Below the pieces are notes generated by a model. It ran no database searches, was not told where the DNA came from, and saw only the letters and a program-made list of their open reading frames with translations. From the NCBI GenBank assembly GCA_017508895.1, contig JAFWRA010000080.1, positions 1-8,614 on the forward strand: a stretch of DNA of 8,614 bases. The letters run 5' to 3'. Source of the stretch: Bacteroidales bacterium. Lineage in GTDB: Bacteria; Bacteroidota; Bacteroidia; Bacteroidales; F082. The first letter of the stretch is position 1, and each line of letters starts with the position of its first letter. Below, piece by piece: positions 1-8,614 of the stretch. Position numbers and translations under genes: made by a program.

Positions 1-534
1 CATGACACGACGATAGTCTGGCAACTGTTCCTCTGAATGTAGCATATCCAACAACGGTGCATCGTATTCGTCTATGATAATAACCACTTGCTTTTTTTCT
101 TTCTCATAGGCACGACGAATTATCCCTTTGAGTAAAGTTCCTGGAAGATTCTCGTCAGCATCTCGACCAAACTTGTCCGCCAAAGGCTTCAATATCAGCA
201 TCAAAACCCTACGGAGTTCTTCTGCAGTAGTTTGGTTTTTCGCCTCGCTCAAATCCACATGGATGACAGGATATGCTTCCCACTCCTTCTCCAGCTCCAT
301 GATTTTCAAGCCTTCGAAAAGGTCTTTTCTTCCTTGGAAATAGGAATCCAGAGTGGTGGTAAGCAAACTCTTTCCAAACCTTCGAGGACGGCTGAGAAAG
401 ATATATTTGGCATAATGAGCCAATTTCCAAACAAGATCGGTTTTGTCTACATATACATAACCTTCTTTTCTAATCTCAGAAAATGTCTGTATCCCAACAG
501 GATAGCGTCTTCCAAAAAAAGCTGTATCTACCAT
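1..534 (-). CDS. AAA-ATPase-like / DUF1703 family protein, 5' part (runs off the left edge)
   Basis: This is an open frame of 178 codons from ATG at 534 to the window edge, with no stop. The protein has the layout of the AAA-ATPase-like family (Pfam PF09820), whose members usually end in a PD-(D/E)XK nuclease-type domain (DUF1703) and are around 500 residues long, so about two thirds is missing. Visible motifs are the family N-terminus YPVGIQTF (residues 11-18), GYVYVDKT (25-32), a Walker A-like loop SRPRRFGKS (48-56) and a Walker B strand VVIIIDEYD (150-158). The biochemical role of the family is not established; nucleotide binding is expected from the Walker motifs, and nuclease activity is only a family-level guess. 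No earlier in-frame ATG is needed, because the promoter at 553-583 gives a leader of about 12 bases. The gene is separated from its upstream neighbour by a terminator, so it is its own transcription unit. It is clearly paralogous to the gene at 8108-8614. Confidence 0.9.
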   Translation of the reverse strand, partial: MVDTAFFGRRYPVGIQTFSEIRKEGYVYVDKTDLVWKLAHYAKYIFLSRPRRFGKSLLTTTLDSYFQGRKDLFEGLKIMELEKEWEAYPVIHVDLSEAKNQTTAEELRRVLMLILKPLADKFGRDADENLPGTLLKGIIRRAYEKEKKQVVIIIDEYDAPLLDMLHSEEQLPDYRRVM

Positions 535-552
535 AATTGTTGTCTTTGGGTG

Positions 553-583
553 CAAAGTTACGAAGAAAAAGATTACTTGCAAA
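553..583 (-). promoter_or_regulatory. Bacteroidota-type promoter for the left AAA-ATPase-like gene
   Basis: Reading the minus strand, TTTG at 583-580 is followed by a 19-bp spacer and then TAACTTTG at 560-553. This matches the Bacteroidetes primary sigma factor consensus (-33 TTTG, about 19-21 bp, -7 TAnnTTTG). A start about seven bases downstream would lie near 546, leaving roughly 12 untranslated bases before the ATG at 534. The -33 box begins just past the T-tract of the terminator at 591-625, so the two transcription units are packed tightly but insulated. The match is seen directly; activity is inferred. Confidence 0.75.
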
Positions 584-590
584 CAAAAAC

Positions 591-625
591 AAGAAAAACG
601 GCCACCTCGTGTGAGATGACCGTTT
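591..625 (-). terminator. Rho-independent terminator of the cohesin-like gene
   Basis: A 13-bp stem (arms 613-625 and 596-608, including G-U pairs in RNA) closes a 4-base loop at 609-612. On the minus strand it is followed at once by a T-rich run (TTTTTCTT, 598-591, overlapping the end of the stem). It lies 22 bases beyond the stop codon of the gene at 647-3763. The opposite strand has no T-tract after the stem, so termination should work only leftward. It likely ends the protease / cohesin transcript. Confidence 0.88.
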
Positions 626-646: not shown

Positions 647-3600
647 TTATTCCGTCACTTTGAATCTAATGCTGAAACGGGCTTCAGGTTCTTGTCCGGC
701 GGCTTGGAAGACATAGGCTTGCTGTTTTAACAAATCCACTGTCAAGCCGGTGACGTGGTCAACCAATTGCAGGTATTCGAATTCCGTCTCGTTTCTGTCG
801 ACGGTCAGGGTGAAGTCGCCCACCTGTTTGCTGCTGAAACAGAGCTCCAGCGACTCAAAGGCTTTCTCCACGTGTGCGATGGCGTAATCCTTGCCGTTGT
901 CGCGGACCCAAAGGCTCGGCTCTTGTGCGACGAAGCCGACCATCTTCTCCATGCTGTTGCCACGACCGATGTACACGAATGTCTGATCCATTCCGTTTTC
1001 GCCCTTGACGCTGATGCTCAACGGACTGGTTCCCCTCTTGGCTCCACCCGTTTCCGCAGTGGCGGTGGCGGTGCTCTTGGCTATCGTCAAGACGGTGGGG
1101 GCGGTTGCCTTCACCAGGATGCCTTGTCCAGGATGGATGGCGTCTTCAAAGGTATGGACCTGCCATGTGCCTTCGTTGGTCAGGGTGTAGTAGCCTGAAG
1201 CGAGGTTGACATTGTCAATGGCCGCTCCCACGCCCTTGTAGATGTCGTGCGGGAAGGGGTTACCGATGAGGTTGAAGCCACTGAGCGGGTCGTTGGGACG
1301 CTCGGTGAAGGATAAGGGGCAAGAGACCGCTGAGGCGTTCAGTATGCCTGTAAAGGCGGGACTGAAGGCGTTGCTATTGGCAAAGAGGTAGCCTCGGCCA
1401 TTCTCGAAAGTGGTGAAGTCAGCAAGGCCGCCCTTGTAGTTCTCCCATTCCTCGTTGGTGAGGTTGCTCTCGTTGAAGCGATATAGGTCGAATTCAGGGG
1501 TGGCAAAGCTGCTTCCCTCGATGGGCATTTCATCCATTGGTGAAGCGATGGTGTACCAAGCATCGGGGTTGCTGTTGCTGTATGCGACAATGTCCTTCTC
1601 CAACGTTGCCGCCACGTTACCCGAGGCATTGATAAGTTGTGCCCCGTCCTTGATGACCAAGCCCGCTGTTGAGGTATTGGTCAAGTCGCCTGTCACCGTG
1701 AGGGTTTTGTCTGGCTGGAGGGTGAGTGATTGGCCGTTTGAAACGGTCAGTTCGGCCACCTCGGTGGTCATGTCAAGCTGGCAGTTGGCATCGATGAAGA
1801 CTCTATCGCAACTTCTTGGTAGGGTATTGTATTGCCAATTGCTGATTCCGCTCCAAACGCCATCGGATATGAAATGAAAGTCCACTGGAACTGCAAAGAA
1901 AACAAACGCTAATGGGTCAAACAATCCCGTGTATAGGTTTACTCCTTCCACCCCACTGAGCACGATGTCGGAAACAGAAACCGCGTATTCCTCTTCCGAT
2001 GGCGCATAGATAGGGTGCAAAGTGACATTCAACACTACACCGTCATGGCCATCCACAGAATTGTTTTGTAGGGAAAGAATCAGAATCCGAAAAATGGAAT
2101 CGTTGATGGGCATAGCATAAAGATAGTGGTTGGCAAAGCGTTCGGTCAACTGGAAGTCTGAGGATTGCACCGAGTAATCCTCGTATGGATATTGGAAATT
2201 AGCCTGCAAAGCCACAATACCCGAATAGTTGTTCATGGCCAATGACACGGCCACATCACCGTTCTCCAAACTGAAGGGGTCGGCGGTGAGTTCAAGATCG
2301 TTCGGCTCATAGCGACTGCCAGATAAAGCTACATTCTTCAACCCATTCTGTGGGTCATTGCTGTAGATTTTCATCAAGGCGCTGAAATCGCCTTTCTGCT
2401 CACGGCTGTAACTTACGTGCAAAGTGGTGTTGGCATATTGTTCAACAACAATCGGCATTGTTTCGGCAACAGAGAAATCTGACTGGTCGAAGACGACTTG
2501 GTCAATGCGCATAGAGGCATTACCCTGATTGCGTACCACATATTCTCGGGTGACGGTCTCGGTGACAGGCGAAGAGCCGAAACTCAAAGAATTGTTGCCA
2601 TTGATTTTCGGGCTTCGGATAGTGACGCGACCTTGGTATTTGGCCGAGAGTGCATCCTCTCCGTTGGCATCAGCCAGCACTGCCTTGGAAGGATTCAGGT
2701 AATAGTTGCCATACAAGCCCCGCAAACGCAGCCTCAAAGTGCCAATCACACCGTCATCACCCGTGAAAGCCGATCCCGAGGCAGAATAGGCCATCAGACG
2801 GAGCAAGCCCTCATTGAAAACACCCACTGAAACATGGTCGACCTTGCGGTTGCTAAGTGTGAAGTCCACATATTCCAAAGCTTGCGGCAGGTTCATGTCA
2901 ATTTGGAAACCCATGATGGCCTCCATATTGTTCATGCTGATGGGCACCTCCACGACGCTGTCGCAATAGCCCGTCACATAGTCAATGTGGATTTCGTTCA
3001 CGGCAAAGGGATCAGCAATCAAGTTGATGATGCCGTTGCCAGCAATGGAATTGGAAACGATGGTCGCCGTGGCGGTCAGTGCACCTTTTTGCATCGGAGC
3101 AAACTTGAAGGTAAAATAGGCATTGCCCCCTGGCTGCAAGGTGGTTTCCGTGAAACTCGGGCAGCTGAACACCGCATTGCTGAAGTTGATGCCCGTAATG
3201 ACCAGTGGCTCGTTACCCACATTGGTTACGCTTGCATTTTGAGTATATTCGCTGCGAATGGGCACATGGCCAAAATTCATGTTTGGCGTGTTGATTTGGA
3301 GCTTGGGCGAAAGGATAGTCACCATACCATTGCTTGTAGTTACTGGCAAGGCATTGCCCGCAGCATCCGAGAGTTTGGTTTCGTTCAGCTCAAGAGCATA
3401 GTCACCTGGCTCATTCTTGAGTTTCAGAGTAAAACTAAGCAGGTCACCTTCGTTGCCCACAAAGGGCGTGAGACTCAGAGAGAAAGCATAGATGCGCAGA
3501 CTGCCGTTGACCACAGCGGCACTTACTTGGTGGTCGGTAACACGGTCGGGATTGAGGGCTACTGACCCTGTCACGTAGGTCAGCTGGCTGCCCAAAGGGA

Positions 3601-3763
3601 TTTCTGCTTGGAACGCCACAGCTGCATCGATGTTGGCGAGCGACACTTGCAGCGTCACTTCGTCCTGCGGGTGACCGCTTGTCGAGCTGACCGAAACCAT
3701 GTTTTCGGCCCTTGCAGCAAGTCCACTGAGCAGTAGGATTAAAATTAATATGATGTGTTTCAT
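647..3763 (-). CDS. Secreted multidomain protein with three cohesin-like domains (putative scaffold/adhesin)
   Basis: The protein has 1038 residues and starts at ATG 3763 with a signal peptide (MKHII, leucine/isoleucine-rich core, cut after ARA near residue 19), so it is exported. Residues 22-150, 254-382 and 491-612 share a cohesin-like layout: an opening strand with V-x-V, an A-x-Q/G-F-Q strand, a YVTGS-like strand, a G-L-R-I/L-x-A-Y/F-S strand, then G-D-x-G-x-L/V before the last strands. They are separated by ASH/choice-of-anchor-like domains at 151-252 and 383-485 (NFGHVPI and LSFGSSPV openings, later N-V/Q-GN). Residues 630-720 look like short parallel beta repeats, and 720-1038 is a beta-rich region common in Bacteroidota surface proteins. 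It ends in RFSIRFKVTE with no recognisable T9SS sorting domain, which is unusual for this architecture. It lies 98 bp downstream of the dockerin-bearing protease on the same strand and has no convincing promoter of its own, suggesting co-transcription. The cohesin assignment is by eye; a generic surface adhesin is the alternative. Confidence 0.85.
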   Translation of the reverse strand: MKHIILILILLLSGLAARAENMVSVSSTSGHPQDEVTLQVSLANIDAAVAFQAEIPLGSQLTYVTGSVALNPDRVTDHQVSAAVVNGSLRIYAFSLSLTPFVGNEGDLLSFTLKLKNEPGDYALELNETKLSDAAGNALPVTTSNGMVTILSPKLQINTPNMNFGHVPIRSEYTQNASVTNVGNEPLVITGINFSNAVFSCPSFTETTLQPGGNAYFTFKFAPMQKGALTATATIVSNSIAGNGIINLIADPFAVNEIHIDYVTGYCDSVVEVPISMNNMEAIMGFQIDMNLPQALEYVDFTLSNRKVDHVSVGVFNEGLLRLMAYSASGSAFTGDDGVIGTLRLRLRGLYGNYYLNPSKAVLADANGEDALSAKYQGRVTIRSPKINGNNSLSFGSSPVTETVTREYVVRNQGNASMRIDQVVFDQSDFSVAETMPIVVEQYANTTLHVSYSREQKGDFSALMKIYSNDPQNGLKNVALSGSRYEPNDLELTADPFSLENGDVAVSLAMNNYSGIVALQANFQYPYEDYSVQSSDFQLTERFANHYLYAMPINDSIFRILILSLQNNSVDGHDGVVLNVTLHPIYAPSEEEYAVSVSDIVLSGVEGVNLYTGLFDPLAFVFFAVPVDFHFISDGVWSGISNWQYNTLPRSCDRVFIDANCQLDMTTEVAELTVSNGQSLTLQPDKTLTVTGDLTNTSTAGLVIKDGAQLINASGNVAATLEKDIVAYSNSNPDAWYTIASPMDEMPIEGSSFATPEFDLYRFNESNLTNEEWENYKGGLADFTTFENGRGYLFANSNAFSPAFTGILNASAVSCPLSFTERPNDPLSGFNLIGNPFPHDIYKGVGAAIDNVNLASGYYTLTNEGTWQVHTFEDAIHPGQGILVKATAPTVLTIAKSTATATAETGGAKRGTSPLSISVKGENGMDQTFVYIGRGNSMEKMVGFVAQEPSLWVRDNGKDYAIAHVEKAFESLELCFSSKQVGDFTLTVDRNETEFEYLQLVDHVTGLTVDLLKQQAYVFQAAGQEPEARFSIRFKVTE
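1928..3700 (-). repeat. Protein-level repeat: cohesin-like / ASH-like module array
   Basis: Within the 1038-aa protein a two-module unit recurs: cohesin-like 1 (3314-3700), ASH-like 1 (3008-3313), cohesin-like 2 (2618-3004), ASH-like 2 (2309-2617), cohesin-like 3 (1928-2293). Each ASH-like module begins with SPK, ending the preceding cohesin after V-T-I, and each is followed by ADPF at the start of the next cohesin. The third cohesin is the most divergent and is not followed by an ASH module. Repetition is visible in protein only; the DNA copies are well diverged, indicating old duplication. Confidence 0.65.
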
Positions 3764-3788
3764 TTTGTATAGTTTTTGTATCGGGCCC

Positions 3789-3839
3789 TTCGACAGGCTC
3801 AGGGGCCCTTAGGTCGTTAAGGTCGTTGAGCCTGTCGAA
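3789..3839. repeat. Nested intergenic palindrome, REP-like
   Basis: Perfect 13-bp inverted arms, TTCGACAGGCTCA at 3789-3801 and its complement at 3827-3839, enclose a second 5-bp stem (CCTTA 3807-3811 with TAAGG 3818-3822) around a 6-base loop. The result is one hairpin with a small internal loop. The 8-mer GGGCCCTT occurs twice, at 3783-3790 and 3803-3810, and GGTCGTT is repeated at 3812-3818 and 3821-3827. From memory, near-identical TTCGACARGCTCA palindromes are scattered in intergenic DNA of many bacteria; I could not search this genome. It sits between the protease and cohesin-like genes. No T-tract follows on either strand, so it is not an ordinary terminator, but in a shared transcript it could stabilise or process the RNA. 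Confidence 0.7.
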
Positions 3840-3861
3840 ACGCCGACATACCTAAACATGT

Positions 3862-6800
3862 TTATCTTACATACACCACTTTAGCACGTTGGACATTGCG
3901 GCCGTTGACCTGCATGGAGACCGTGTAGATGCCGGTAGCCATGCTGGCCGAAGGCGACCATTCATATTTGTACTCTCCCCTACTGCGTGAGCCAAGTTCG
4001 ATGCGGGAAACTGTCTGACCCATGATATTCGTGACGGTGAAAACAACGTTGTTGACCCTCTCATCGGCGATGATGAAGGGGATGGTAAGGTTACCGTTGA
4101 AGGGATTCGGATAGGGTTGCTCAAGGAAGAGTGTCTCGTGTTCTTCGACACCAGTACCCGAAAGGATGGCCAGCACATTGTGGCCTTCTGGGTCTGATAG
4201 GGCAACAGTGTTGATTTGGCCTTCGCCGATGCGGAGCAAGGCGTGCTTGCCAGCGGGCAAACGCTTGCCGCTCATACTGTAGGCCATGGACAGCGTGCCA
4301 TCGCTCACATCAGCCTTCACTTGCTCGAAGCCTTCCAATGCCTGCAGCACCTCTATGTTTTGGCCGCCGATGCCATTGAGCACAAACTGCACACCACCCA
4401 ACTCGACGGGCGTATCCACGTAGAGAATGCCGTTCTCGATGCTGTAATAGGCAGTGGCCACAGGGTTGGCATCGGGCAAGCCGCCTCGGTTGGTGATGAT
4501 GTTGATGACACCCACGATGTCCAAGATATCGATGTTGCCATCGCCATTCACGTCTGCTGCCTCAAAGATGAAGGGCTGCGGGTTGCCGTTGGTGAGGTAG
4601 CTGACAATGCTGACCACATCCGCCACATCCACACCCATACTGCCGTTGGCATCGCCCTGAATGGACGTAAGCGGCACGGTGGTGACGGTGAGCGAAGCCT
4701 GACTCTCCGTAAGGTTGGTGCGCAATATCTTGTAATAATAATAGTAACGTTGGCCAGGTACCACATTATAGTCTGTGAATACGGTGTCTTGGATGAGTGC
4801 AGTGTTCAGTTGGATGGAGTCTGTAGGCATCCAAACAGTTTCTTCTTCAATCCAATTCCAGTTTTCATCATAATGACCTTCAATATAAACACTGTCATAC
4901 CGATACCTGTACATATTATACCCCAAGAAATCCTCGAAATCCACTTCATTGTTGTTCCATTCCAAATCCACTTTGCCTAGACCAGGCGTGGCCATGAATT
5001 CATTACTCAAAGAACCTGCCGAAGCCACCTGCACATTGAAGCGAAAGTTCTCCACGGGTATCTCGAAATGCTCATTGTCTCTTGCCTCAGCCACATAAAT
5101 GCGGTTAAGACCATCCGTAGCCGTAGTGCCATCAATAGTGATGGTGGCTGAATAGATGGTTCCGTCTACATTCCAATGACCGTTTCGGGTTATCCCATGC
5201 TGGGTGTAAGGCGGACGCACGCCCATAGCCAGCATAGGCGTGACCAAGGTGTCCATTGGACGATTGAAATACACCTTAAACTCGTGTGTGCCACAACCCA
5301 AAGGAGGCATTTGCTCAAACTCGTCCTGCGCATCATAGCCGTTGACTACTACTTTCCATACTATTCCGTGAGCTTCGGGAATAGGTTGGATAGCTACATT
5401 GTCTATATTGAGGCTACCGAATAAGTAACCAGAATTAAAGTCTTGAATATGATTACGCATAATGTCTACACGTGAAGTTCCCAAAAACACACTACTTAAA
5501 AAATATTCACTTGGAGTGTTTGATTCGGTTTTGAATTCTCTGCCCCATACTCCATCATATCCTTTATTTCCAAACCAATTTGAATATAGTTCTACATTAG
5601 AAGACAACAATTGACTTTTATACGTAATGTTATTTATGAAATTATTAAAGTCTCTTGCATTAGTATACAAACGTTCATCGCTATTGTACATAGAAAATTC
5701 ACAATTAAAAATATTTGAGTTTGAAATTTTGCAGTTAATAGTAGTATATGTATAATAATAATGTATGAATTGAATAATGGAGTTATGAATAAAAGCTCCA
5801 TTTATTGGACCTTGATATTGAAAACCAATTCCATAATCACCACAATTCTCAATTTTACAATACTGCAAAGTGTCGCCACTTAATAACAATCCCTTCCATC
5901 TTGCATTAAAATCAACATTTGTAAAAGTAATCAAACTATCTGGCGTTCCAACAGCATGAATACGTCCGACACTAGATATACCAATATTATTCTTAAATTT
6001 CAATGTTGTTCCAGGTTTAATAATCAGCAATCCCGTGCTACTTATTGCGATGTTGTCAGTTACAATGTAATGCACGTTGGGATAGAGTGTCATCGTATCA
6101 GTAATCATCCCAGAAAGTTCCACACCGTTTTCCACTTGTATAGTGAAAGGAAATACCAGTTCCGATTGTGCATTGGAGGAAGTGGCATGAAGCTCCATAT
6201 TGATATAGCGGCCATCCACGCAATCGGGGTTAATGGTAAAACGTACGGGATTTTGAGATTTACTCTTGGCATAGGCAGAAAGACTCCAACCGAAATCTAC
6301 AGGTTCGGTATCCAAGAAAGTCACAATACTGGGGTTTTCAAACTCGTCCAAGGTCAGCCACATCGTAATGTCATCCGTGGCACCCCATGTGGTGCGCAAA
6401 GTGGGATAGAGGCAGATGGTCTCGCCTGCATCGGGGCGGCCATCGCCATCCCCGTTAATGGTGTCGTTCGTCTCAAAAGCCACGAACTGCAATTGTGCTG
6501 GTGCCTCGCCTGCCTCGTAACAAGCCATGAAATCCACATGAATGCCAGCAGTGTTAATCAAGTCGCCCCAAAGCATTTCCTGCGAGATGTAGGGCTTGGC
6601 ATGAAGCAAGGCAGAGATGCCGCCCGCCACCAAAGGCGTACTCATGGAAGTACCGTTATAGCTGCGGTAATTGCCGTTGGGCACGGTACTGTAAATGCCC
6701 AAACCAGGGGCTTGCAGTTCATAGTTGTAGAGCTGTTCCTCGCTAAAATGCGAGAAAGAAGGGCCATCATCATCAAAATTGGACCAACATGTTCTATATC

Positions 6801-7995
6801 CACAAAAACCTGGTACTTGTTGTGTGGCTTCCACACCAAACACAAAAGTAAATGCAGCAGGGAACATTGGAAATGTGTTAATACCTCGTCCATCATTACC
6901 AGCAGCAGCCACCAATACGCTGTTTTGGTAAGCTTGACCTAAGGCTTGCTCCAAAGCGATGGAATAGCTATAAGAACCAAAGCTCATGCTAATTACATCG
7001 GCGCCGTTGCTTTTGGCGTAGTTAATGCCTTGGATGATGGTGGCCACGTCGCCCGTGCCATTGCTTTGCAGCACGGCAACAGGCATGATGTAGGCCATAG
7101 GGTTGGCACCAGTTATGCCAATGCCGTTGTCGCCTACAGCGGCGGCAATGCCTGCGCAGTGGGTACCATGGCTGTTCCAGTCGTGCATGTCGGCGGTCTG
7201 GTTCACAAAATCCCAGCCGTGGAGGTCATCGGTGAAACCGTTGTTGTCATCGTCGTAGCCGTTCTCATTTTCGCCTGAGTTGGTCCAGATGTTGGCGGCG
7301 AGGTCGGGGTGGTCGATGTCCACTCCAGTATCGAGGATGGCAATAACCTTGCGGTCGGTGCTTAAAACCATGGTATCGGCAGCCCAAAGCTCGGGAAGAT
7401 GGACAGCTTCCAAACCCCATTGTAGGGGATACATAGGCTCAGCCATGTAGGCATCAGGATTGAAATAACCACCATCACGGTTGCGCTTGATGCCAAAGGG
7501 CTTTAGAGGCAAATAAGGCGATGTTTCGCTTTCCACGTCCAAGGCAAAAGCCATGTAGTTAGGCTCGGCAAACTCCACCTCATCGAGTTCCTTCAGTGCT
7601 TCAATCATTTCATGGGTCTGCAAGGGGTCTTCCATCACGAAGCGGCAGAGGCGGCTCAGGTCGCGTTCCACCACGTCGGGACCATTGTACGACTTGGAAG
7701 TCTTCAGATCCCTATTAGGATTATCGTTGGGGCAAAGGCGCTCGGCCTTGGCCACGGGGAAGGTTTTCAGCAGAGCATCCACTTTATTGATTCCAGTGGT
7801 TTGGAGGATTCCGCGCTCGTCGTTTTGCAAGCGCAGTGTGGTGTGGTCGGCAAACTTCACGATGAGTTCGCTCTCTTTGGTGGCATGCTGGTTAAACCAG
7901 TCAATCTTCACCACCTCATCTTCATTGTTGCGGTCTTGGGCAAGGCAATAGGCGCAGGCCAAGACCAATGTGAGTAGGGTAAATAATTTCTTCAT
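3862..7995 (-). CDS. Secreted subtilisin-like serine protease with dockerin and T9SS sorting domain
   Basis: This is a 1377-residue protein if started at ATG 7995. An ATG at 8049 is in frame, but the likely promoter lies between the two, and MKKLFTLLTLVL...CLAQ at 7995 is a clean signal peptide. Order of parts: signal 1-20; propeptide to about 190; S8 domain about 193-487 with Asp222 (AILDTGVD), His276 (SHGTHCAG), oxyanion Asn367 (AAGNDG) and Ser450 (GTSMSTP), so the active site is intact; an acidic, probably calcium-binding segment 240-262; a beta-sandwich around 500-625 with NGDGDG; right-handed beta-helix-like region 637-862; Ig-like 875-990; FN3-like 1005-1109; type I dockerin 1114-1169; a cohesin-like beta domain 1180-1275; T9SS type A domain 1290-1377 (YPNPF at 1295-1299). 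By T9SS knowledge, the sorting domain would direct it across the outer membrane and to surface attachment or release. The substrate is unknown. The first gene of a probable two-gene unit, it may dock to its cohesin-bearing neighbour. Confidence 0.93.
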   Translation of the reverse strand: MKKLFTLLTLVLACAYCLAQDRNNEDEVVKIDWFNQHATKESELIVKFADHTTLRLQNDERGILQTTGINKVDALLKTFPVAKAERLCPNDNPNRDLKTSKSYNGPDVVERDLSRLCRFVMEDPLQTHEMIEALKELDEVEFAEPNYMAFALDVESETSPYLPLKPFGIKRNRDGGYFNPDAYMAEPMYPLQWGLEAVHLPELWAADTMVLSTDRKVIAILDTGVDIDHPDLAANIWTNSGENENGYDDDNNGFTDDLHGWDFVNQTADMHDWNSHGTHCAGIAAAVGDNGIGITGANPMAYIMPVAVLQSNGTGDVATIIQGINYAKSNGADVISMSFGSYSYSIALEQALGQAYQNSVLVAAAGNDGRGINTFPMFPAAFTFVFGVEATQQVPGFCGYRTCWSNFDDDGPSFSHFSEEQLYNYELQAPGLGIYSTVPNGNYRSYNGTSMSTPLVAGGISALLHAKPYISQEMLWGDLINTAGIHVDFMACYEAGEAPAQLQFVAFETNDTINGDGDGRPDAGETICLYPTLRTTWGATDDITMWLTLDEFENPSIVTFLDTEPVDFGWSLSAYAKSKSQNPVRFTINPDCVDGRYINMELHATSSNAQSELVFPFTIQVENGVELSGMITDTMTLYPNVHYIVTDNIAISSTGLLIIKPGTTLKFKNNIGISSVGRIHAVGTPDSLITFTNVDFNARWKGLLLSGDTLQYCKIENCGDYGIGFQYQGPINGAFIHNSIIQFIHYYYTYTTINCKISNSNIFNCEFSMYNSDERLYTNARDFNNFINNITYKSQLLSSNVELYSNWFGNKGYDGVWGREFKTESNTPSEYFLSSVFLGTSRVDIMRNHIQDFNSGYLFGSLNIDNVAIQPIPEAHGIVWKVVVNGYDAQDEFEQMPPLGCGTHEFKVYFNRPMDTLVTPMLAMGVRPPYTQHGITRNGHWNVDGTIYSATITIDGTTATDGLNRIYVAEARDNEHFEIPVENFRFNVQVASAGSLSNEFMATPGLGKVDLEWNNNEVDFEDFLGYNMYRYRYDSVYIEGHYDENWNWIEEETVWMPTDSIQLNTALIQDTVFTDYNVVPGQRYYYYYKILRTNLTESQASLTVTTVPLTSIQGDANGSMGVDVADVVSIVSYLTNGNPQPFIFEAADVNGDGNIDILDIVGVINIITNRGGLPDANPVATAYYSIENGILYVDTPVELGGVQFVLNGIGGQNIEVLQALEGFEQVKADVSDGTLSMAYSMSGKRLPAGKHALLRIGEGQINTVALSDPEGHNVLAILSGTGVEEHETLFLEQPYPNPFNGNLTIPFIIADERVNNVVFTVTNIMGQTVSRIELGSRSRGEYKYEWSPSASMATGIYTVSMQVNGRNVQRAKVVYVR
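3865..4128 (-). other. T9SS type A C-terminal sorting domain of the protease
   Basis: The last 88 residues match the Por secretion sorting family (T9SS type A): LEQPYPNPFNG opening, hydrophobic strand LTIPFII, central VTNIMGQTV in place of the usual DxxGR strand, then ATGIYTVSM and a basic-ending VVYVR. Family knowledge says this tail is read by the T9SS translocon and cut by the PorU sortase at the surface. It is the strongest taxonomic marker in the window. Confidence 0.9.
4489..4656 (-). other. Type I dockerin domain of the protease
   Basis: Two 12-residue calcium loops, each followed by a hydrophobic helix, are spaced as in clostridial dockerins. Loop 2 (DVNGDGNIDILD, residues 1148-1159) is canonical D-x-N-x-D-x-N-x-D-x-x-D. 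Loop 1 (DANGSMGVDVAD, 1115-1126) has Ser at position 5, where Asp is usual. Positions 10-11, which set partner specificity in clostridial dockerins, are VA and IL, hydrophobic rather than Ser-Thr. Known dockerins bind cohesins; the adjacent gene encodes cohesin-like domains. Confidence 0.88.
5410..6060. other. AT-rich segment inside the protease gene (beta-helix region)
   Basis: The four 60-base lines from 5581 to 5820 hold 58 G+C in 240 (24%), while the line at 4561 has 55% and the line at 7141 has 65%. The frame stays open throughout and encodes the Asn/Ile/Tyr/Phe-rich beta-helix-like part of the protease. The abrupt change inside one gene suggests this module has a different history from the catalytic and sorting domains, or that its Asn/Ile-rich composition drives part of the bias. 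Confidence 0.75.
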
Positions 7996-8025: not shown

Positions 8026-8058
8026 CAAAAATAAGAAAAAACAAAGCAACCTGTCAAA
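8026..8058 (-). promoter_or_regulatory. Bacteroidota-type promoter for the protease (and probably the cohesin-like gene)
   Basis: On the minus strand, TTTG at 8058-8055 is followed by a 21-bp spacer and TATTTTTG at 8033-8026, fitting the TTTG / TAnnTTTG consensus. A start near 8019 would leave about 24 bases before the ATG at 7995 and would exclude the in-frame ATG at 8049, so this site decides the start codon. The -33 TTTG forms half of the palindrome CAAATTTG (8055-8062), in the divergent region shared with the gene at 8108. Confidence 0.65.
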
Positions 8059-8107: not shown

Positions 8108-8614
8108 ATGACTAAATATCCTATCGGCTTGCAGAATTTCCAAGGGCTTCGCGAAGACGGCTATGTTTATGTGGACAAAACAGCCTTTGTGTACGAACTG
8201 GCGCAAAGCGGGAAATACTACTTCCTCAGCCGCCCACGCCGCTTCGGTAAGAGTTTGTTCCATTCCACACTCGAAGCCTATTACCAAGGGAAAAAGGAAC
8301 TCTTCAATGGGCTAGCTTTGGAGCGGTTGGAAAAAGATTGGAAGGTATATCCAGTGTTTCATTTGGACTTCAATACAGGTCTTTATACAAATCCAGAGGG
8401 CTTGGTTTCAATCATAGACGAACATTTGCGTTACTTTGAAAAGAATTATGACATCGAACCCAATGGCTTTTCATTATCGGAGCGATTCAAGGCTATTATT
8501 CGCTGCGCATACGAGAAAACGGGCCAAAAAGTGGTCATTTTAGTAGATGAATACGACAAGCCTCTGTTGGAAGCCATTGGAAACGAGCCACTCCAAAACG
8601 ACTATAGGAAAATG
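8108..8614 (+). CDS. AAA-ATPase-like / DUF1703 family protein, 5' part (runs off the right edge)
   Basis: An open frame of 169 codons runs from ATG 8108 to the window edge without a stop. It begins MTKYPIGLQNF, the typical start of the AAA-ATPase-like family (PF09820), then GYVYVDKT (residues 18-25), Walker A-like SRPRRFGKS (41-49) and Walker B VVILVDEYD (142-150). The nuclease-like C-terminal half expected for the family lies outside the window. It is a paralogue of the gene at 1-534, with long identical blocks (YVYVDKT, FLSRPRRFGKSL) but diverged DNA, so this is an old duplication or separate acquisition. It is transcribed divergently from the protease across a 112-bp gap. No perfect promoter is visible; TAATTCTG at 8074-8081 is one mismatch from the -7 consensus but lacks a well-spaced -33. 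Function is unknown beyond expected nucleotide binding. Confidence 0.9.
   Translation, partial: MTKYPIGLQNFQGLREDGYVYVDKTAFVYELAQSGKYYFLSRPRRFGKSLFHSTLEAYYQGKKELFNGLALERLEKDWKVYPVFHLDFNTGLYTNPEGLVSIIDEHLRYFEKNYDIEPNGFSLSERFKAIIRCAYEKTGQKVVILVDEYDKPLLEAIGNEPLQNDYRKM

Follow-up and report, generated by a model that had tools for sequence, protein, structure and literature searches.

A candidate two-gene protease-cohesin surface module with a polymorphic part in Bacteroidales

The window analysed here, a stretch of 8,614 nt from contig JAFWRA010000080.1 of a Bacteroidales bacterium (assembly GCA_017508895.1), harbours two neighbouring genes on the (-) strand, a subtilase gene with a dockerin (gene A) and a gene encoding three cohesins (gene B). 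Residue positions refer throughout to A and B of this window. We slightly favour the reading that A and B constitute a dedicated two-gene protease-cohesin module of Bacteroidales, displayed on the cell surface by the type IX secretion system (T9SS) and equipped with a polymorphic part. Judged from domain content and gene order, the protease with its dockerin and the partner with its three cohesins probably form a surface complex. A preliminary description of the window had reported the adjacent dockerin-protease and multi-cohesin genes, which were confirmed and lie on the same strand. Its interpretation of a surface complex was partly supported: the folds are real, the pair is conserved and the pairing appears dedicated in six relatives, but B of the window lacks a recognisable T9SS sorting domain. 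The description had overlooked that A contains a hypervariable cassette and that the C-terminus of B is exchanged. The features of the two genes are as follows.

3862..7995 (-), gene A, T9SS-type subtilase with dockerin, 1377 aa; open reading frame (ATG at 7995, inside the listed frame), Pfam S8 and Dockerin_1, TIGR04183
6547..7347 (-), peptidase S8 domain, A 217-483, with Asp222, His276, Asn367 and Ser450; Pfam and homolog alignment
5386..5925 (-), hypervariable cassette of low guanine-cytosine (GC) content, A about 691-870, beta-helix-like as judged by eye; homolog comparison and GC
4495..4656 (-), type I dockerin, A 1114-1167, two calcium-binding-type repeats; Pfam, 30.5 bits
4126..4485 (-), cohesin-like domain, A 1171-1290, immediately past the dockerin
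3862..4113 (-), T9SS type A sorting domain (C-terminal domain, CTD) of A, including the stop codon
647..3763 (-), gene B, three cohesin domains, two ASH domains and an exchangeable C-terminal part, 1038 aa
3308..3706 (-), B cohesin 1, residues 20-152
3014..3307 (-), B ASH/HYDIN immunoglobulin-like (Ig-like) domain 1; Pfam PF22544/PF15780
2606..3010 (-), B cohesin 2, residues 252-386
2309..2605 (-), B ASH/HYDIN Ig-like domain 2; second Pfam stretch, hhalign 99.1% to domain 1
1898..2308 (-), B cohesin 3, residues 486-622, the most divergent of the three; hhalign 99.4% to cohesins 1 and 2
650..1897 (-), C-terminal part of B, residues 623-1038, exchanged among relatives; T9SS CTD not found

Besides an intact subtilase, sequence and fold identify three further elements in A: a dockerin, a domain of cohesin fold and a sorting domain for T9SS. 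The S8 domain was detected with Pfam PF00082 (E 6.2e-47) and its catalytic triad is intact. Asp222, His276, Asn367 and Ser450 were invariant among 26 aligned homologs, and all three triad motifs were present in 12 of the 13 A proteins checked, the exception being that of locus L062, which lacks the exact HGTH string. Homolog lists were sorted by similarity to the window, so these counts, like those for B, describe close relatives. The dockerin, searched with the PF00404 profile as had been proposed, scored 30.5 bits (curated cut-off 22.9), contains two F-hand repeats and was matched in 26 of 26 homologs, in which eight ligand-type Asp/Asn positions (D1115, N1117, D1123, D1126, D1148, N1150, D1152 and D1159) are likewise invariant. 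The subtilase had been described as ending in this dockerin; the dockerin is not terminal, and a cohesin-like domain and then the CTD follow it. The CTD matches TIGR04183 (24.4, cut-off 23), falls just under the cut-off of Pfam PF18962 and shows the CTD fold. A signal peptide was seen by eye, the T9SS motif was found in 13 of 13 A proteins checked, and SprA, the T9SS translocon gene, in 16 of 16 relatives tested, in line with the T9SS route previously suggested for A.

The cohesin profile PF00963, also proposed earlier as a check, gave 51.8 bits for B (curated cut-off 24.1), and the cohesin fold was found as well. Cohesin 3 yielded weak matches to the NagJ cohesin. As a single sequence B had no match among PDB sequences. 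Plain Foldseek lists were topped by ciliary HYDIN/ASH-type and other Ig-fold chains, and no cohesin stood among the best 50 Foldseek matches for either of two models.

The neighbourhood of the two genes is conserved in related genomes, which had been named as a further check. Each of the 17 A-bearing genomes examined (L001, L002, L003, L004, L006, L007, L029, L056-L060 and L062-L066) has a B-type cohesin gene at the locus of A, with all three cohesins visible in 15. Eleven of these genomes were reached through the dockerin family or A, with B not used, and six through B; the A gene of L066 is a fragment at a contig end with the protease part missing. B lies directly downstream of A in 11 genomes, beyond one intervening gene in four (L057, L059, L060 and L066), and upstream in two (L056 and L058), where it is incomplete in the fetched stretch and shows one or two cohesins. 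The genes overlap by 4 nt in L001, L003, L004 and L006. Three genomes with weaker A matches (G359, G414 and G434) were kept outside the 17, G414 and G434 having been viewed in short flanks only; in G359, S8 was not detected in the dockerin gene, yet a B-type cohesin gene follows. Tandem arrangement occurs in L059, which possesses three copies of A, then a two-cohesin gene and a three-cohesin gene. A Cloacimonadota contig (L010) harbours a relative of B with 30% identity, preceded by a short gene matching the first cohesin of B, and a fragment matching the T9SS tail of A lies upstream.

Searches of eight whole genomes returned one dockerin match in seven and none in one, by profile thresholds at which divergent domains can be missed. 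Cohesin matches (E <= 0.001) in the six A-bearing genomes searched whole were confined to B, with none passing in G003 despite its B gene. Profile matches thus point to A-B as a dedicated pairing in these six relatives. The bacterium has relatives in the stomachs of cattle, goat and yak: among six that carry both genes and have names, five names are of ruminant type (RUG, goat, yak) and one is of soil type, which suggests a host range broader than the rumen.

A classical cellulosome-like scaffold that gathers many dockerin enzymes is very improbable for this locus. Three cohesins in a single protein would suit such a scaffold, as would the precedent of a proposed Cloacimonadota scaffoldin with dockerin peptidases and glycoside hydrolases (passages of PMC8542988). 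It is disfavoured because neither several dockerin enzymes nor a scaffoldin with a carbohydrate-binding module (CBM) was found: each of the six A-bearing relatives searched whole has a single dockerin match, and a Pfam scan of B (E <= 1) detected no CBM. The proposed Cloacimonadota complex, from Candidatus (Ca.) Stygibacter, is the nearest case that we found described. In the passages of PMC8542988 concerned with it, the complex is presented as cellulosome-like, with S8 and C25 peptidases bearing C-terminal dockerins, several dockerin enzymes including the glycoside hydrolase (GH) families GH18 and GH57, and one 3,755-aa scaffoldin with CBM2/CBM3 and a surface-attachment CTD. Dockerin peptidases occur in both systems. 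Unlike the complex outlined in those passages, the relatives studied here have one dockerin gene per genome (six relatives), and B lacks a CBM and often a CTD.

At the level of the order, a sample of 295 genomes contained dockerin in 104, cohesin in 91 and both in 68 (odds ratio 13.8, kinship ignored). Among 59 genomes with a single dockerin, a cohesin was found in another open frame on the same strand within 10 kb in 24 (downstream in 21), in the same frame only in four and elsewhere only in five, so that where a cohesin is present it mostly lies close by. In the 23 of these with a dockerin of at least 29.5 bits, the cohesin was nearby in 16 (downstream in 15), in the same frame in two, elsewhere in none, and absent in five. 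Dockerin proteins at several places of this kind carry other heads, namely kelch and beta-helix (L020, L022), beta-helix (L027, L030) and M6 peptidase (L028). By these gene orders the adjacency of dockerin and cohesin genes looks like a broader Bacteroidales habit, of which the subtilase pair would be one form.

Several observations weigh against a dedicated A-B complex. In 26 of the 59 single-dockerin genomes no cohesin was detectable, five of them having a dockerin of at least 29.5 bits. The threshold used for cohesins in this sample (E <= 0.01) also yields one sub-cut-off match in an E. coli control, and above the curated cut-off the genomes with cohesin number 25 of 59, compared to 33 at E <= 0.01. 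Just 31 of 42 aligned B homologs have a Pfam cohesin match at E <= 0.01, and 10 of the 42 carry a dockerin themselves. Pfam and NCBIfam scans found no T9SS CTD in B of the window, from which the motif is also absent, as in many relatives; the sequence of this B alone thus does not account for its surface display. The genomes counted came without completeness figures, and the counts, made with profile thresholds and capped first passes that miss divergent domains, describe relatives, not the window's own genome. Finally, A possesses a cohesin-fold domain of its own adjoining the dockerin on the C-terminal side, and a model of the A tail reached a predicted local distance difference test (pLDDT) score of 58.9, below 50 over the dockerin and there too low to bear on docking in cis.

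Two alternatives arise from these points. Large T9SS surface proteins could use dockerin and cohesin merely as structural units, calcium-stabilised or Ig-like, that do not interact specifically, and the adjacency of the genes would have some other reason. The genomes with a dockerin and no cohesin match, and the dockerins within B homologs, would fit this explanation, which we regard as unlikely. The other alternative follows from the cohesin-like domain of A itself, which makes use of the dockerin in cis or between A molecules a real option: the dockerin would bind the adjoining domain and give a compact stalk or a chain, with the cohesins of B acting as spacers or binding something else. The position of that domain immediately past the dockerin favours this, as do 15 of the 33 single-dockerin genomes with cohesin, which seem to have both in one frame (taken from frames of equal length on a single contig), four of them without another cohesin nearby. 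A GH31 protein in L032 also has a Pfam dockerin match followed by a cohesin match (E 0.0017, under the curated cut-off). Nevertheless, the B-type gene at the A locus in all 17 genomes would be left unexplained, and the domain of A is shorter and more divergent than the cohesins of B (hhalign 84% or less). On balance we consider this arrangement rather improbable.

The polymorphic part of the proposed A-B module is most evident in A. Among 109 homologs taken from the best 120 of 2411, identity to A in 30-residue bins was 63-95%, except for residues 691-870 (27-37%) and 151-180 (43%). In 24 pairs with a C part at least 95% identical, the median identity of the cassette was 0.26, and it was above 0.7 in three. 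The converse was found in the pairs P0127/P0168, P0124/P0192, P0169/P0215 and P0150/P0197, with cassettes 94-100% alike and less similar surroundings. Clustering of 110 proteins at 70% identity gave 95 clusters for the cassette, two for the S8 domain and one for the dockerin with the next domain; at 90% identity the numbers were 102, 25 and 17. The cassette alleles are still related, with a median identity of 0.297 compared to 0.212 in shuffled controls. Their GC content is 0.21-0.37, compared to 0.34-0.54 elsewhere in the gene; it is the lower of the two in the window as well as in 14 of 14 loci. On these alignments A is a mosaic in which the cassette has been replaced between close relatives.

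Pfam, NCBIfam and PDB sequences offered no convincing match that would place the cassette in a known family, and the beta-helix pattern was seen by eye only. A search of A 695-865 against 5.8 billion proteins returned the query itself alone among 118 candidates, by a method that needs shared 5-residue words and can miss distant relatives. The leading edge of the cassette (A 600-700) had one strong match per genome in 12 of 12 genomes and weak ones (E 1e-5 or worse) in three. There is thus no sign of a shufflon or silent cassette store: no second strong leading-edge copy was found in the 12 genomes, a search that copies without that edge would escape. Smaller variable stretches of A comprise residues 361-420 (window 6736-6915), which lie within the protease domain and cover the oxyanion Asn367 and the positions that follow it, and residues 151-180 (window 7456-7545), which precede the domain. 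Variation in 361-420 may alter substrate choice.

The C-terminal part of B is exchanged as well. B pairs with cores 94-97% identical have C-terminal parts as low as 38-54% identical, with the exception of P0024/P0025 (89%), and B of the window shares a core of 95% identity with P0005 and no detectable similarity in the tail. The T9SS motif was present in 39 of 69 B tails and a near variant in one more, some database tails perhaps having been shortened by assembly. For the window and 16 loci, nine of 17 B genes have the motif; the eight lacking it are those of the window, L001, L002, L057, L062, L029, L056 and L058, of which L029 is probably broken by a frame change and L056 and L058 are incomplete in the fetched stretch. 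A 1708-aa protein (L005, 6107-11233), from the same genome as L001, has a terminal module 85% identical to the tail of window B, which indicates that B tails are common to unrelated surface proteins. Directly past B in L006, a C10-family peptidase (PF01640; 13015-18111) with a T9SS-like tail just under the Pfam cut-off is encoded, and a protein with a B-type tail follows it.

Comparison of three species (G392, G375 and G387) showed an A-B locus that is 94-97% identical in DNA outside the cassette, compared to 80-83% in the sprA regions; same-contig flanks of G392 and G375 are also 80-83% identical. Up to about nt 1980 the A genes of G392 and G375 are 90-100% identical, and beyond about nt 2800 mostly 92-100%, with 85% in the last bin; between these points identity is mostly 43-58%, with four bins near the edges at 68-85%. 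At the protein level, G375 and G387 have cassettes 73% identical to each other and 24-28% identical to that of G392; the B tail is conserved among the three (90-100%). Speaking against such exchange as a general property, a second species pair, G401/G399, showed no excess similarity of the locus (84.7% vs 85.9%). The locus thus appears to have moved in one of two groups. Assembly error may be a source of cassette variation or of the exchange signal; the cassette breakpoints lie inside contigs in G392 and G375.

The cassette could also be a decoy or antigen under phage, protozoan or host pressure, with target choice residing elsewhere. This has somewhat less than an even chance in our estimate and is compatible with the A-B surface module. 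The extreme allele diversity, the low GC content and the exchange between species fit frequency-dependent selection, but A 361-420 near the oxyanion Asn and the B tail vary too, which would also fit changing targets. A more speculative proposal, to which we give a low probability, is a polymorphic recognition system in which species would trade protease alleles and the beta-helix cassette would set the cell, phage or protein that is recognised, a periplasmic dockerin-cohesin contact carrying CTD-less B across the outer membrane on the T9SS signal of A.

For the favoured A-B module, the following working can be envisaged. A would pass through Sec and T9SS to the surface and be anchored there. 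Its dockerin would be bound in a calcium-dependent manner by the cohesins of B, and up to three proteases would then be held per B. Protease core, dockerin and cohesins would represent the constant machine, and the cassette and B tail its changing face; the cassette, and partly the B C-terminus, would be the outward part that binds a target or is seen by phages, protozoa or rivals. B without a sorting domain may arrive at the surface as a passenger of A. If CTD-less B reaches the surface, transport on A by way of the dockerin contact would be the simplest route. While the domains and the presence of SprA are observed, secretion, surface anchoring, dockerin-cohesin binding and the role of the variable face are predicted from them. 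We picture a small assembly of proteases, private to the pair and with a polymorphic tip, rather than a cellulosome-like one.

The A-B pair is best read as a form of non-cellulosomal cohesin-dockerin system, not as a cellulosome. Such systems, which Peer et al. reportedly reviewed in 2009, have few modules per genome and partners that are not cellulases. Both properties are found here, and the cohesin fold matches the NagJ cohesin of C. perfringens (2jh2/2ozn) and the A. fulgidus cohesin 2xdh. What sets the A-B pair apart from those systems is its predicted T9SS export, a protease as partner, the alternation of three cohesins with ASH domains, a fixed two-gene locus and a hypervariable cassette. 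The gingipains of Porphyromonas gingivalis are T9SS-exported cysteine proteases with adhesins cut from the same chain. Similar to these complexes, a T9SS-exported protease is predicted here to be kept with adhesin domains at the surface, whereas the protease is a subtilase and the cohesins belong to a separate protein. The present locus also resembles polymorphic surface loci that undergo recombination, for instance those of O-antigens or variable adhesins, in its low-GC variable core within conserved flanks and in exchange between species; in contrast to them, the cassette lies inside a protease gene and has no second strong leading-edge copy (12 of 12 genomes).

Among the entries listed for the open-licence part of PubMed Central (PMC), no paper described this pair or a T9SS protease with a variable cassette. 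For rumen Bacteroidetes, passages of PMC6071333 and PMC3396655 give cohesins and dockerins as metagenome counts or in non-fibrolytic proteins, with unclear roles, and a passage of PMC10266427 mentions dockerins in cockroach Bacteroidales. Excerpts on Ca. Paraporphyromonas polyenzymogenes state that it has no dockerins, said to be consistent with other Bacteroidetes genomes (PMC5831590), and those on the reindeer rumen partial assembly SRM-1 likewise report none (PMC3368933). The Hungate1000 discussion of these modules, in the section concerned, is about Clostridiales (PMC6118326). The relevant part of a paper on the T9SS translocon describes CTD-mediated binding and gives no precedent for passenger export (PMC10994853); piggyback import is described, in a passage of PMC9251779, for peroxisomes and not for T9SS.

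One dockerin gene beside one cohesin gene offers a clean pair for probing these modules outside cellulosomes, and through the exchanged cassette one can test what selection acts on a surface protease. A CTD-less B beside a CTD-bearing partner makes passenger export directly testable; if true, it would be a hitchhiker route for T9SS.

The remaining features of the window are the following.

8028..8057 (-), promoter-like site upstream of A; 10/12 pattern match
3764..3861 (-), A-B spacer with a palindrome resembling repetitive extragenic palindromic (REP) elements, arms at 3789 and 3827; folding z -5.5
596..625 (-), terminator-like stem of 13 pairs past B

The promoter-like site also contains TTG and then TATTTTTG, which we take to be the Bacteroidetes -33/-7 pattern. 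Rfam and tRNA scans over the window gave no matches, and PADLOC returned a generic subtilase model for A only, with none for B or the flanking genes. The spacer is 98 nt long and forms the REP-like hairpin TTCGACAGGCTCA ... TGAGCCTGTCGAA (folding z -5.5); REP-like half-sites or near variants were also present in L009, L025, L043 and L058. The A-B unit is flanked on either side by genes of the same predicted AAA-ATPase family (PF09820), at 1-582 (-) and 8108-8614 (+), both truncated by the window edge.
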